Assembly: GCF_011927825.1 (NCBI RefSeq)
Contig: NZ_JAATJI010000001.1
Coordinates: 372,001-436,000 of the forward strand
DNA from: Polymorphobacter fuscus
Lineage (GTDB): Bacteria > Pseudomonadota > Alphaproteobacteria > Sphingomonadales > Sphingomonadaceae
DNA: 64,000 nt
Direction: 5' to 3'
In this document: positions 17,912 to 21,148 of the stretch, piece after piece
Layout of the letters: each line of letters starts with the position of its first letter
Numbering within the stretch: the stretch's first letter is position 1
Translations under genes and position numbers: made by a program
Notes under the pieces: model-generated
Told to the model about the DNA's origin: nothing
Seen by the model: only the letters and a program-made list of their open reading frames with translations
Databases searched by the model: none

Positions 17912-19546
17912 ATGACCCGGTTTATTTTCATCACCGGCGGCGTGGTTTCGTCGCTCGGCAAGGGCCTTATGGCCGCCTCGCTCGCCGCGCTGCTCCAGGC
18001 GCGCGGCTATACCGTCCGCATCCGCAAGTTCGATCCCTATCTCAACGTCGATCCCGGAACGATGTCGCCGTACCAGCACGGCGAAGTCTATGTGACCGAC
18101 GATGGCGCCGAGACCGATCTCGACCTTGGCCATTACGAGCGTTTCACCGGCGTCGCGTCGCGGCAGACCGACAATATCACCAGCGGCCGAGTCTATCAGG
18201 ACATCATCACCAAGGAACGCCGCGGCGATTTCCTGGGGGCGACGGTCCAGGTCATCCCGCATGTCACCGATGCCATCAAGCATTTCGCCCGCGCGGACAC
18301 CGAGGGGCTGGATTTCGTGCTGTGCGAGATCGGCGGCACCGTCGGCGACATCGAATCGCTGCCCTTTCTCGAGGCGATCCGCCAGCTCAGCGCCGATGTC
18401 GGCCGCGCCAATGCCGTCTATATCCATTGCACGCTGGTGCCGTATCTTGCCGCTGCCGGCGAGTTGAAGACCAAGCCGACCCAGCACAGCGTTGCCGAAC
18501 TGCGCGGCATCGGCATCCAGCCGCATGTGCTCGTCTGCCGGTCGGAACATCCGCTGCCCGATGGCGACCGCGCCAAGATCGCGCTGTTCTGCAATGTCGC
18601 CAAGGAAGCGGTGATTTCGGCGCTCGACGCCCCCAGCATCTACGACGTGCCGCTGCAATATCATGCCGAAGGGCTCGACGACCAGGTGCTGGCGGCGTTC
18701 GGCATCAACGGCGCGCCGGCGCCGCTGCTGACGCGCTGGACCGACATCACCGATCGGCTGCACAGTCCGGAAGGCGAAGTCACCATCGGCGTCGTCGGCA
18801 AATACACGGGCATGAAGGACGCCTATAAATCCCTCACCGAGGCGCTGGCGCACGGCGGCATCGCCAACCGCGTCAAGGTCAACATCCGCTGGATCGAAGG
18901 CGAGCTGTTCGAAGGCCCCGATGCCGATATCGTCGCGCAGCTGGAACCGATGCACGGCATCCTGGTGCCCGGCGGCTTCGGCGAACGCGGCACCGAAGGC
19001 ATGATCCGCAGCGTCCATTTCGCCCGCGACCGCCAGGTGCCGTTCTTCGGCATCTGCCTCGGCATGCAGATGGCGTGCATCGAGGCCGCCCGCAACCAGG
19101 CCGGGGTGGCGGAGGCCGGGACCACCGAGTTCGGGCCGACCGCCGAGCCGGTCGTCGGCATGATCACCGAATGGATGAGCGCCGACGGCCTGCAGGTGCG
19201 CGAAGCCGGCGGCGACCTGGGCGGCACCATGCGGCTGGGGGCCTATGACGCGACCCTTGCTGGCAACAGCGTCGCTGCCAGCATCTATGGCGACACCGCC
19301 ATCTCCGAACGCCACCGCCACCGGTACGAGGTCAACGTCAACTATCGCGAGCGGCTGGAAGCCTCGGGGCTGATCTTTTCGGGCATGTCGCCCGATGGCC
19401 TGCTGCCCGAAATCGTCGAGCGGCCCGACCATCCCTGGTTCATCGGCGTCCAGTTCCACCCGGAGCTGAAATCCAAACCCTTCGACCCGCATCCGCTGTT
19501 CGCCGAATTCATCGCCGCCGCGGTGCGCCAGAGCCGCCTGGTGTGA
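17912..19546 (+). CDS. pyrG: CTP synthase
   Basis: Makes CTP from UTP, ATP and glutamine. The 544-residue product has the amidoligase domain ([20 protein letters not shown] with its P-loop, [20 protein letters not shown], and [14 protein letters not shown]). It also has a C-terminal class I glutaminase with the nucleophile in GICLGMQ and the closing [16 protein letters not shown]. Length and motifs are standard. The tpiA-secG-pyrG neighbourhood is kept here but widened by two inserted genes upstream, and it is followed by the pucBA pair. Confidence 0.97.
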
Positions 19547-19559
19547 CTTTGTCGCTTAG

Positions 19560-19577
19560 TGTCGGGTTTGCCTGACA
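19560..19577. promoter_or_regulatory. PpsR/CrtJ-type operator, TGT-N12-ACA
   Basis: An exact TGT-N12-ACA palindrome (TGTC...GACA arms) lies 20 bases upstream of the -35-like TTGACA of the pucBA promoter. In purple bacteria this is the recognition sequence of PpsR/CrtJ, the aerobic and light-dependent repressor of photosynthesis genes including puc. A second, imperfect match (TGT-N12-ACG) starts at 19624 and overlaps the start-site region. Finding the box in front of antenna genes makes chance unlikely. Confidence 0.6.
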
Positions 19578-19596
19578 CTTTCGGGGTCGCGACCAA

Positions 19597-19624
19597 TTGA
19601 CACACACCCGGGTTGCGATAAAGT
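19597..19624 (+). promoter_or_regulatory. Candidate sigma-70 promoter for pucBA
   Basis: A consensus TTGACA at 19597-19602 is followed after 16 bases by TAAAGT (19619-19624). The remaining 190 bases before pucB would form a long leader with no convincing gene. The position between the PpsR-type box and pucB fits a repressed photosynthesis promoter. The transcription start is not shown. Confidence 0.5.
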
Positions 19625-19814
19625 GTCGCTAACACGTGACGGGTTACGGGGAGTCGATCCTCCAGCGAAGGCGCCGGCAACGGCACCGGGATCGGGCGAA
19701 CGGGGCAGGATCGTGTGAAGACGGATGGCTGCCAAGGGGGTGGTCTTCTGGCTGCGCTGCGGGCGAGAGCCGGCGGCACGGCAGTACAGCTGGTCTCAAA
19801 AGCGGAGATGGTCG

Positions 19815-19967
19815 ATGGCAGATGAAACAAAGGTTTACCCATCCGGGTTGACCGAAAAGGAAGCCGAAGAAATCCAGGGCGGCCTGATGTGGGGCACCCG
19901 GATCTATGCGGCAATCGCGATCCTGGCGCACATCCTGGCGTACATGCTTACGCCTTGGCTCAAGTAA
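19815..19967 (+). CDS. pucB: Light-harvesting complex 2 beta chain
   Basis: A 50-residue inner-membrane antenna polypeptide that binds bacteriochlorophyll a. It aligns along its whole length with LH2 beta chains: KVYPSGLTEKEAEEI, then GTR, AHILAY and the terminal TPWL. The GTR and TPWL motifs are LH2 features; LH1 beta chains end in WRPW. His39 is the expected ligand of the B850-type pigment and Arg29 corresponds to the Arg that bonds B800. The beta His normally found eight residues before that Arg (His12 in Rhodoblastus) is Gln21 here. The ATG at 19815 is preceded by GGAG. An in-frame ATG 90 bases upstream would add an unrelated leader. pucA follows after 15 bases. Confidence 0.9.
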   Translation: MADETKVYPSGLTEKEAEEIQGGLMWGTRIYAAIAILAHILAYMLTPWLK

Positions 19968-19982
19968 GGGGAGGCCGTAATC

Positions 19983-20183
19983 ATGAATGAAGGTCGTATC
20001 TGGCTCTATGTCCGCCCGACGGTTGGTATTCCGTTGTTCTTCATCGCCTTTGTTCTGGCAGCGCTCGCGGTGCACGCGTCGATCCTGAACAACACCACCT
20101 GGTTCGCTGCCTATTGGCAGGGCGCCGCTCCGGTCGCGACCAGCGCCGAAGCTCCGACCGCCACCGCCACCAAGGCGGGCTGA
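19983..20183 (+). CDS. pucA: Light-harvesting complex 2 alpha chain
   Basis: A 66-residue alpha antenna chain. The N terminus MNEGRIWLYVRPTVGIP is the LH2 form in which the first Met ligates B800. His31 ligates the B850-type pigment. Tyr44 and Trp45 (TTWFAAYWQG) keep the positions that hydrogen-bond B850 in Rhodoblastus, so the complex should be B800-850-like rather than the blue-shifted 820 type. A flexible Ala/Thr-rich tail of about 19 residues extends beyond usual alpha chains. A strong ribosome-binding site (AGGGGAGG) precedes the ATG. A terminator follows about 45 bases downstream. No pucC assembly factor is adjacent. Confidence 0.92.
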   Translation: MNEGRIWLYVRPTVGIPLFFIAFVLAALAVHASILNNTTWFAAYWQGAAPVATSAEAPTATATKAG

Positions 20184-20226
20184 ACGGACGGCTCGGCTCG
20201 GCGCCCAGGCGCCGGGTCGTGACACG

Positions 20227-20259
20227 AAAAGGCCGGGGTCTCGCGACCCCGGCCTTTTT
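20227..20259 (+). terminator. Intrinsic terminator of pucBA
   Basis: A perfect 14-base-pair hairpin (arms 20227-20240 and 20245-20258, AAAAGGCCGGGGTC type) with a four-base loop runs directly into a T tract. It closes the pucBA transcript and, because of the A tract on the other side, may also terminate the convergent MoxR-type gene. Confidence 0.88.
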
Positions 20260-20296
20260 CGCGTCCGGCGCAGGTGGCGGAGCGTGATCGAGCGCT

Positions 20297-21148
20297 CTAG
20301 GCGTTGCCGCGCCGGCTCATGAAGGCCAGCCGTTCGAACAGCATCACATCGGCCTCGTTCTTCAACAGCGCGCCGTGCAGCGGCGGGATCAGGCTCTTGG
20401 TATCGCGATTGCGCAGCACGTCGATCGGCAGGTCCTCGTGCATCAGCAGCTTGAGCCAGTCGAGCAGTTCCGACGTCGACGGCTTCTTCTTCATGCCGGG
20501 CACTTCGCGGATGTCGAAGAAGATGTTGAGCGCCTCGGCGACCAGCGCCTTCTGGATTTCGGGGAAGTGGACGTTGACGATGGACTGCATCGTCTCGCGA
20601 TCGGGGAACTTGATATAGTGGAAGAAGCAACGGCGCAGGAAGGCGTCGGGCAGCTCCTTTTCATTGTTCGAGGTGATGATGACGATCGGGCGCACCGCCG
20701 CCTTCACCCGTTCGCCGGTTTCATAGACATCGAATTCCATGCGATCGAGCTCGGTCAGCAGGTCGTTGGGAAACTCGATATCGGCCTTGTCGATCTCGTC
20801 GATCAGCAGCACCGGCAGCTTCGGCGCGGTGAACGCCTCCCACATCTTGCCGCGGCGGATATAATTGGAAATTTCGTGGACGCGCGGGTCGCCGAGCTGG
20901 CTGTCGCGCAGCCGGCTGACGGCGTCATATTCGTACAGGCCCTGCTGCGCCTTGGTCGTCGACTTGACGTTCCATTCGATCAGCGGCGCGTCGAAGGCAT
21001 CGGCGATCTGCTGCGCCAGCACGGTCTTGCCGGTGCCGGGTTCGCCCTTGACCAGCAGCGGCCGCCGCAGCGTGACGGCGGCATTGACCGCGACCTTCAG
21101 ATCCTCGGTGGCGACATAGCCGGAGGTGCCCTGGAAACGCATCGACAT
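20297..21148 (-). CDS. MoxR-family AAA+ ATPase
   Basis: A 283-residue AAA+ ATPase of the MoxR group, which act as chaperones for metal- or cofactor-containing complexes. Walker A is GEPGTGKTVL, Walker B VLLIDEIDKAD, and sensor 1 is in IITSNNEKELPDAFLRRC. The C terminus KNEADVMLFERLAFMSRRG is typical of the family members often paired with a VWA-domain CoxE gene. No such partner is adjacent; the next gene upstream on this strand is an unrelated secreted protein. The client is therefore unknown. It converges on pucBA. Confidence 0.85.
   Translation of the reverse strand: MSMRFQGTSGYVATEDLKVAVNAAVTLRRPLLVKGEPGTGKTVLAQQIADAFDAPLIEWNVKSTTKAQQGLYEYDAVSRLRDSQLGDPRVHEISNYIRRGKMWEAFTAPKLPVLLIDEIDKADIEFPNDLLTELDRMEFDVYETGERVKAAVRPIVIITSNNEKELPDAFLRRCFFHYIKFPDRETMQSIVNVHFPEIQKALVAEALNIFFDIREVPGMKKKPSTSELLDWLKLLMHEDLPIDVLRNRDTKSLIPPLHGALLKNEADVMLFERLAFMSRRGNA

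Follow-up and report, generated by a model that had tools for sequence, protein, structure and literature searches.

The locus examined here raises the question of whether two small antenna genes, pucB and pucA, standing alone behind a CTP synthase gene (pyrG), encode a working LH2 antenna, and of how they came to lie apart from the other photosynthesis genes of their host. The window, that is the whole stretch of 64,000 nucleotides analysed, spans C1:372001-436000 of a 3.36-Mb genome in a near-complete assembly of three contigs. The two genes very probably constitute a working LH2 operon in a member of the Sandarakinorhabdus/Polymorphobacter group that lives by anoxygenic photosynthesis, with PucC-assisted assembly, B800 and B850 rings that deliver energy to LH1 and the reaction centre, probable control by PpsR, a pucA-pucC pair split by rearrangement and a clade-specific B800 site. 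The genes, genome content, synteny, tree and residue pattern behind this reading are observed, while expression, PpsR control, assembly and the spectrum are predicted.

The pucBA operon and its control region

The features in and around the operon are as follows (positions in the window).

17912-19546, + strand: pyrG (CTP synthase; PF06418/PF00117), upstream neighbour of pucBA
19560-19577, no strand: perfect TGT-N12-ACA palindrome from a motif scan, candidate PpsR/CrtJ operator
19585-19602, no strand: counterpart of the relatives' operator box 1, with one of six key letters changed
19597-19624, + strand: sigma-70-like promoter (TTGACA, 16 nt, TAAAGT) from a promoter scan
19611-19628, no strand: counterpart of the relatives' operator box 2, with three of six key letters changed
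19815-19967, + strand: pucB, LH2 beta chain, 50 aa (PF00556)
19983-20183, + strand: pucA, LH2 alpha chain, 66 aa, with Glu3, central His31 and Tyr44-Trp45 (PF00556)
20184-20296, no strand: putative rearrangement junction, where pucA meets the 3' end of moxR; in genus relatives pucA meets pucC
20227-20259, + strand: terminator-like hairpin with T-run (97-nt fold, z -4.9)
20297-21148, - strand: MoxR-type AAA ATPase gene, followed in six relatives by SDR and VWA/CoxE genes

Both chains belong to the LHC domain family, scoring 39.8 and 36.5 bits against a PF00556 cut-off of 23, and each carries the central bacteriochlorophyll-ligand histidine; His31 of the alpha chain is invariant in alignment A1 (29 rows), as are His39 and Arg29 (of the GTR motif) of the beta chain in alignment A2 (16 rows). 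By analogy with the LH2 of R. sphaeroides, as described in the available text of PMC8775250, Arg29 may bond the B800 acetyl group. The motifs by which the initial annotation had assigned the chains to LH2 rather than LH1 (GTR, TPWL, MNEGRIW, His31 and AYWQG) are all found, and the assignment is borne out by solved-chain matches, the PucBA tree and unlikeness to the antenna proteins of LH1. Fifteen solved chains match the alpha chain, twelve named B800-type or LH II, three with generic names and none named LH1. The top-scoring solved chain for the beta chain is the B-800-850 beta chain of PDB 9LT4, at 71.9 bits against 33.5 for the top LH1-named chain, although some LH2 beta chains, e.g. 1KZU (31.7), score below that LH1-named chain. 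A further caution is that the sole NCBIfam model touched by the beta chain is an LH1 beta model, at 59 bits against a cut-off of 61. Similarity to the LH1 PufB and PufA of the same genome is low, and the PucBA tree, which comprises 95 columns with no LH1 outgroup and has little resolution inside the clade, places the window pair in a clade of 30 rows with support of 100/99. Judged by sequence, the window chains are closer to LH2 than to LH1. The GC content of pucBA (0.60, against 0.67 for the window), compared with the window only, is not counted as evidence.

The operon, of which pucB starts 268 bp past the end of pyrG, was described as having its own promoter, operator and terminator, and a promoter, a candidate operator and a terminator-like hairpin are indeed located in the window. 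TGT-N12-ACA, which we take to be the PpsR/CrtJ operator consensus, matches ten times in the whole window against approximately 5.2 expected from base composition, so that the palindrome on its own is weak evidence. At least one exact match occurs within 400 bp in 34 of 43 upstream regions, and in six (L019, L020, L021, L023, L027 and L030) of the 11 clade loci with a TTGACA-N16-TANNNT promoter two perfect boxes 26 bp apart lie over the promoter; the perfect palindrome of the window begins 25 bp upstream of the box 1 counterpart. A TTGACA-N16-TANNNT promoter stands upstream of pucB in 11 of the 27 clade loci scanned (window counted), with other spacings in three and none given in 13. Transcription of pucBA is probably under PpsR. 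The hairpin is not listed by a simple terminator scan, and Rfam returns nothing at gathering score for 19400-20400. Genome-wide searches place no other LHC (PF00556), PF00124 or PF03209 match in the window, in agreement with the absence of nearby puf and pucC genes reported initially.

Photosynthesis genes, pucC and the distribution of LH2

A genome search for pufLM, bch, crt and pucC, proposed in the initial annotation, finds all of them. The genome carries pufL and pufM and only four LHC-family matches, namely the LH1 pufBA genes and the window pair, and ten proteins tested exceed their NCBIfam cut-offs: PpsR (392.5 bits against 275.4), BchG, BchH, PuhA, AcsF, BchC, BchX, BchZ, BchI and CrtD; the remaining bch and puh genes are named from position alone. 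The main photosynthesis cluster is itself split, with approximately 44 kb between a bchG-ppsR side with bchH, puhA and acsF (C1:2576-2598 kb) and a crtD-bchC-bchX-bchZ-puf part (2642-2653 kb), and bchI between them.

Three PUCC-family genes are found by a PF03209 search, none of whose products is named by NCBIfam. One, pucC (C1:677974-679191), lies 286 kb from pucBA (C1:391815-392183). In a PucC tree of 60 rows, derived from a quick search with SH-aLRT support only and a long outgroup branch, it belongs to the set of PucC sequences (42 rows, support 100) and to the one restricted to sphingomonads (27 rows, 96), with the G304 gene as its neighbour. The PUCC gene at C1:2591109 falls outside the pucC set with PUCC genes of, e.g., G286, G301 and G306, and is called LhaA as it precedes puhA. 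For R. sphaeroides the accessible part of PMC4949548 assigns PucC to LH2 and LhaA to LH1, in both cases without strict specificity.

For the distribution of LH2, 24 genomes of the genus, whose name is taken to be GTDB Sandarakinorhabdus, were compared with a family sample of 298 genomes drawn evenly from a larger group and searched with a PucA profile. Among the genomes, G106 is presumably Sandarakinorhabdus limnophila DSM 17366, G286 Polymorphobacter multimanifer and G167 strain AAP62. Within the genus, pucA is present in 21 of the 24 genomes and pufLM in 22. The three without pucA are G252, with neither pucA nor a reaction centre; G306 (98% complete), which keeps a reaction centre and an LhaA-type gene and has lost pucBA and pucC together; and G304, where pucBA was not found, but which is 78% complete with 6% contamination, so that the missing pucBA is weak evidence and only its pucC-side order counts. 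G308 (75% complete) has pucA with no reaction centre shown, and its adjacent pucC is split into two frames (C256; L043, L071).

Across the family sample pucA occurs in 11 of the 298 genomes, all 11 with pufLM, and the class sample gives PucA profile matches in 12 of 385 genomes, own one counted. The view that phototrophic sphingomonads usually have LH1 and a reaction centre only holds in so far as pucA occurs in just 11 of the 55 family genomes with a reaction-centre match over cut-off; a 2025 review likewise states, in the available part of its text, that most Sphingomonadales lack LH2 genes (PMC12654162), as do Erythrobacter NAP1 and Citromicrobium JL354 in the part of a 2011 survey that could be consulted (PMC3176799). 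The same view does not extend to this group, as Sandarakinorhabdus, Polymorphobacter and Erythromicrobium already have LH2-type bands on record (PMC12654162, PMC5017807, both as available in part). LH2-like spectra are also reported for some river-biofilm isolates, one of them S16, which groups with S. limnophila (PMC5017807). LH2 is therefore to be expected here.

Some side observations concern the reaction-centre and PUCC genes. Four reaction-centre matches apiece, forming two separate pufLM-like pairs, occur in the family genomes G006, G100, G162 and G211 (genus g7). At G118:C7:9056-9271 a brief segment resembles reaction-centre genes but is interrupted by two in-frame stops (E 7.4e-4, under the family cut-off). 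Three PUCC genes occur in six family genomes, each of which also has pucA (up to five candidates scored per genome). Eleven of the 24 genus genomes have pucC and a bchG-linked PUCC gene with no third PUCC gene, and so apparently no lhaA. In the sole genome checked by position, that of S. limnophila (G106:C8; L101, L102), approximately 0.94 kb separates bchL from puhA, and lhaA was not found in the examined stretch of the photosynthesis cluster. PucC may serve LH1 assembly in the genus genomes without lhaA.

The arrangement of pucC bears directly on the origin of the operon. The pucBAC layout, with pucC adjoining and co-directional, is absent here, and genus relatives have a convergent layout instead: each of the 20 other genus genomes with puc genes has a PUCC gene convergent with pucA at a distance of 92-677 bp. 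A PUCC gene adjoins pucA in 10 of the 11 puc-bearing family genomes, the exception being the window genome, with G038 co-directional; in the class-level genomes pucC is in view in nine of the 11 others and co-directional in all nine. pyrG lies upstream of pucBA in at least six of the 20 other genus genomes (L049, L062, L063, L064, L065 and L068; flanks of approximately 1.5 kb), and also in loci L021, L023, L027-L030, L035, L038 and L046.

The initial annotation suggested, in part from the lack of nearby puf, bch, crt and pucC genes, that the operon was acquired separately from the photosynthesis cluster. Horizontal acquisition apart from that cluster, with the operon landing behind pyrG, would account for its distance from the puf genes and for the rarity of LH2 in the sampled family, and transfer at a deeper level does look real, given the canonical His-type LH2 of G250 and G038 and the g23 and g41 PucC sequences nested beside P. 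multimanifer. Against a separate recent event stand the wide occurrence of pucA in the genus, its shared position behind pyrG, and a pucC of the same clade, which groups with the pucC genes that adjoin pucBA in kin; the PucBA and PucC trees moreover recover one common sphingomonad set. With pucA in 21 of 24 genus genomes and the pucBA-pucC pair conserved in kin, a separate recent acquisition is set aside and considered unlikely, while a very old acquisition preceding the radiation of the genus may have occurred. A puc operon outside the main cluster is found in most proteobacterial phototrophs according to the available text of the 2025 review (PMC12654162), and a lone puc operon need not imply separate acquisition.

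In the PucBA tree the grouping of the window with L020 and L038 has weak support (83/58). The g23 and g41 genomes stand next to P. multimanifer in both trees (PucC tree, SH-aLRT 97; PucBA tree, 83/97), and the latter joins 9LT4 to G260 of g41 (99/94). These placements suggest transfer out of the Sandarakinorhabdus lineage to g23 and g41. L020 and L032 are contigs of metagenome-assembled genomes labelled Acetobacteraceae and Hyphomicrobiales that carry Sandarakinorhabdus-type puc genes and are possibly misbinned; L020 has no pucC within 1.9 kb downstream of pucA and adjoins a carbamoyltransferase gene.

It is highly unlikely that the operon is a relic, in which LH2 is no longer made, pucC has moved off and the operator boxes have decayed. 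The unlinked pucC and the changes to operator boxes 1 and 2 would fit such a reading, but both chains are intact, with 86% identity over 95 columns to the nearest kin, L020, the -35/-10 promoter is retained and pucC is an intact 473-aa frame scoring 487.6 bits to PUCC. As pufLM are present, the absence of reaction-centre genes that would have marked the antenna as a relic is not observed, and together with puhA, the LH1 pufBA, bch and crt genes, PpsR and three PUCC genes they make a relic improbable. In a working operon, PucC, encoded 286 kb away, would help PucB and PucA to assemble into alpha-beta pairs, and these would bind a B800 ring and a B850 ring of bacteriochlorophyll a and pass energy on to LH1 and the reaction centre.

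A probable rearrangement between pucA and pucC

As pucC stands beside pucA in 20 of 20 kin and 286 kb away here, a rearrangement probably split the pair. The former surroundings of both genes can be read from relatives. In L089 the order is pyrG, pucBA, pucC, GST and a transketolase-like gene, with L087 and L088 agreeing as far as GST; L092 stops too early to show genes beyond pucC, and L090, with no pyrG in view, has its GST gene at the pucB end and a transketolase-like gene past pucC. In the pyrG-linked loci L086 and L091 neither GST nor a transketolase-like gene is seen within approximately 10 kb past pucC, so this stretch of the ancestral order is not universal. In the window genome pucC, patatin, GST and transketolase-like genes occur in mirrored order at C1:671-679 kb. 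On the other side, all six informative relatives have SDR and VWA/CoxE genes next after moxR (a seventh, L098, is too short), and these genes lie here at C1:551-554 kb. A block of approximately 128 kb (551-679 kb) that moved and turned round relative to one of approximately 159 kb (392-551 kb) would account for both former neighbour pairs. This fitting model has three junctions, two of them checked; the predicted third would place the gene near C1:551 kb beside the DUF5117 gene (679.3 kb) in relatives. A single 287-kb inversion was rejected, as moxR would then adjoin the DUF5117 gene in kin, where six of six relatives have SDR and VWA instead.

The least probable explanation is that the separation of pucBA and pucC is an assembly error. 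In its favour, a single near-complete assembly of three contigs was read and the rearranged blocks are large, yet a second genome, G304, has the same patatin-pucC-DUF5117 order (82% over 2,705 bp), which argues against an artefact on the pucC side, the pucA-moxR junction being seen in the window assembly only. The ancestral locus would have comprised pyrG-pucBA with a convergent pucC, and a rearrangement in the window lineage would have cut between pucA and pucC, making the stand-alone look of the window pucBA secondary. P. multimanifer (L035) shares the pyrG-pucBA arrangement and, unlike the window, has an adjoining, convergent pucC. S. limnophila (L040), of the same genus set, differs in its adjoining pucC and in that no pyrG is seen beside pucBA.

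The B800 site and the predicted colour of the antenna

In the alignment pucB has Gln (EEIQGGLMWGTR) where the B800-site His would stand, and this Gln is combined with Glu3 of the alpha chain; the canonical Rhodobacter type has the beta His and lacks alpha Glu3. The LH1 beta chain of the same genome has His at the equivalent position. Across 47 alpha-beta locus pairs, a few of them nearly identical, Glu3 accompanies beta Gln in 11 and beta Asn in 18 of the 29 clade pairs; the 18 pairs outside the clade all keep the beta His, and their alpha position 3 is Gln in 13, Tyr in three and Asn in two, never Glu. The two solved structures divide accordingly, 9LT4 with the clade type and 7PBW with the His type. 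9LT4 (B-800-850 beta, B-800/814 alpha) lies in the same 30-row clade and shares alpha Glu3, but has Asn where the window beta chain has Gln; Asn is also found in S. limnophila, with alpha Glu3, and in P. multimanifer. A literature search for the code 9LT4 returned unrelated text only.

The pattern extends to database relatives. Position 3 is Glu in 118 of the best 120 of 142 alpha relatives, with one Gln and one unread, and 30 of 31 near relatives of the beta chain have Gln or Asn. The one exception has His (EIHGGLMWGTR), so that replacement of His in the clade is not absolute; this otherwise window-type beta chain may be an intermediate, a reversion or an error. The 120 canonical beta chains listed of 1,547 matches have His throughout, a set biased by its ranking with a profile that has His in 14 of 16 rows. 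The family has at least two kinds of LH2, since its members G250 and G038 (L119, L120) fall outside the clade and have the His type.

The LH2 of R. sphaeroides (PDB 7PBW) and that of the window both consist of two LHC-family chains with central histidines, a beta Arg for the B800 acetyl group and aromatic residues at alpha 44/45; the B800 site of R. sphaeroides differs in its residues, His22 of the beta chain and Asn3 of the alpha chain (PMC8775250, as far as its text is available). His22 there holds a water at B800 together with the N-terminal carboxyl of the alpha chain, to which Asn3 also bonds, and a change of His22 to Ser abolishes nearly all B800 absorption (PMC8775250, same portion). 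Discussion of the B800-site swap was not found in the literature searched, which covered few subscription journals with searches not aimed at the swap, and residue terms had no match in the available part of the R. palustris LH2 paper PMC9618040. From the aligned residues, the B800 site is of a clade-specific type, in which alpha Glu3 is combined with a beta Gln/Asn that takes the place of His. It is slightly more likely than not that the sphingomonad LH2 represents a separate structural subclass, in which one ancestral branch rebuilt the B800 pocket through coupled replacements (Gln/Asn for the beta His, Glu3 for alpha Gln/Asn3 and a Trp before the beta GTR) into a hydrogen-bond network no longer needing the His, after which the antenna would have spread from the Sandarakinorhabdus lineage to the g23 and g41 sphingomonads, with the B850 colour retuned repeatedly through alpha 44/45. 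Nearly the whole clade lacks a His that is critical in Rhodobacter mutagenesis, and provides a natural test of which parts of the B800 site are essential.

Among the 29 clade loci, alpha 44-45 are Tyr-Trp in 13, Phe-Trp in eight, Phe-Phe in six and Phe-Met in one, with one cut off; P. multimanifer shares the Tyr44-Trp45 of the window, while 9LT4 has Phe44-Phe45. In R. sphaeroides the change Tyr44Phe shifts the band to 838 nm and Phe44-Leu45 to 826 nm (PMC8775250, available text). Polymorphobacter strain FW250 has bands at 855 (shoulder) and 800 nm in the accessible part of PMC12654162, a band matched to Tyr44-Trp45 by genus only. Given Tyr44-Trp45, the window LH2 is predicted to absorb near 850 nm and not at 830 nm. 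This colour prediction is open to a single spectrum, with Tyr44-Trp45 at approximately 850 nm here and Phe44-Trp45 in S. limnophila, for which bands at 800/837 nm are listed (PMC12654162, Table 2, as available).
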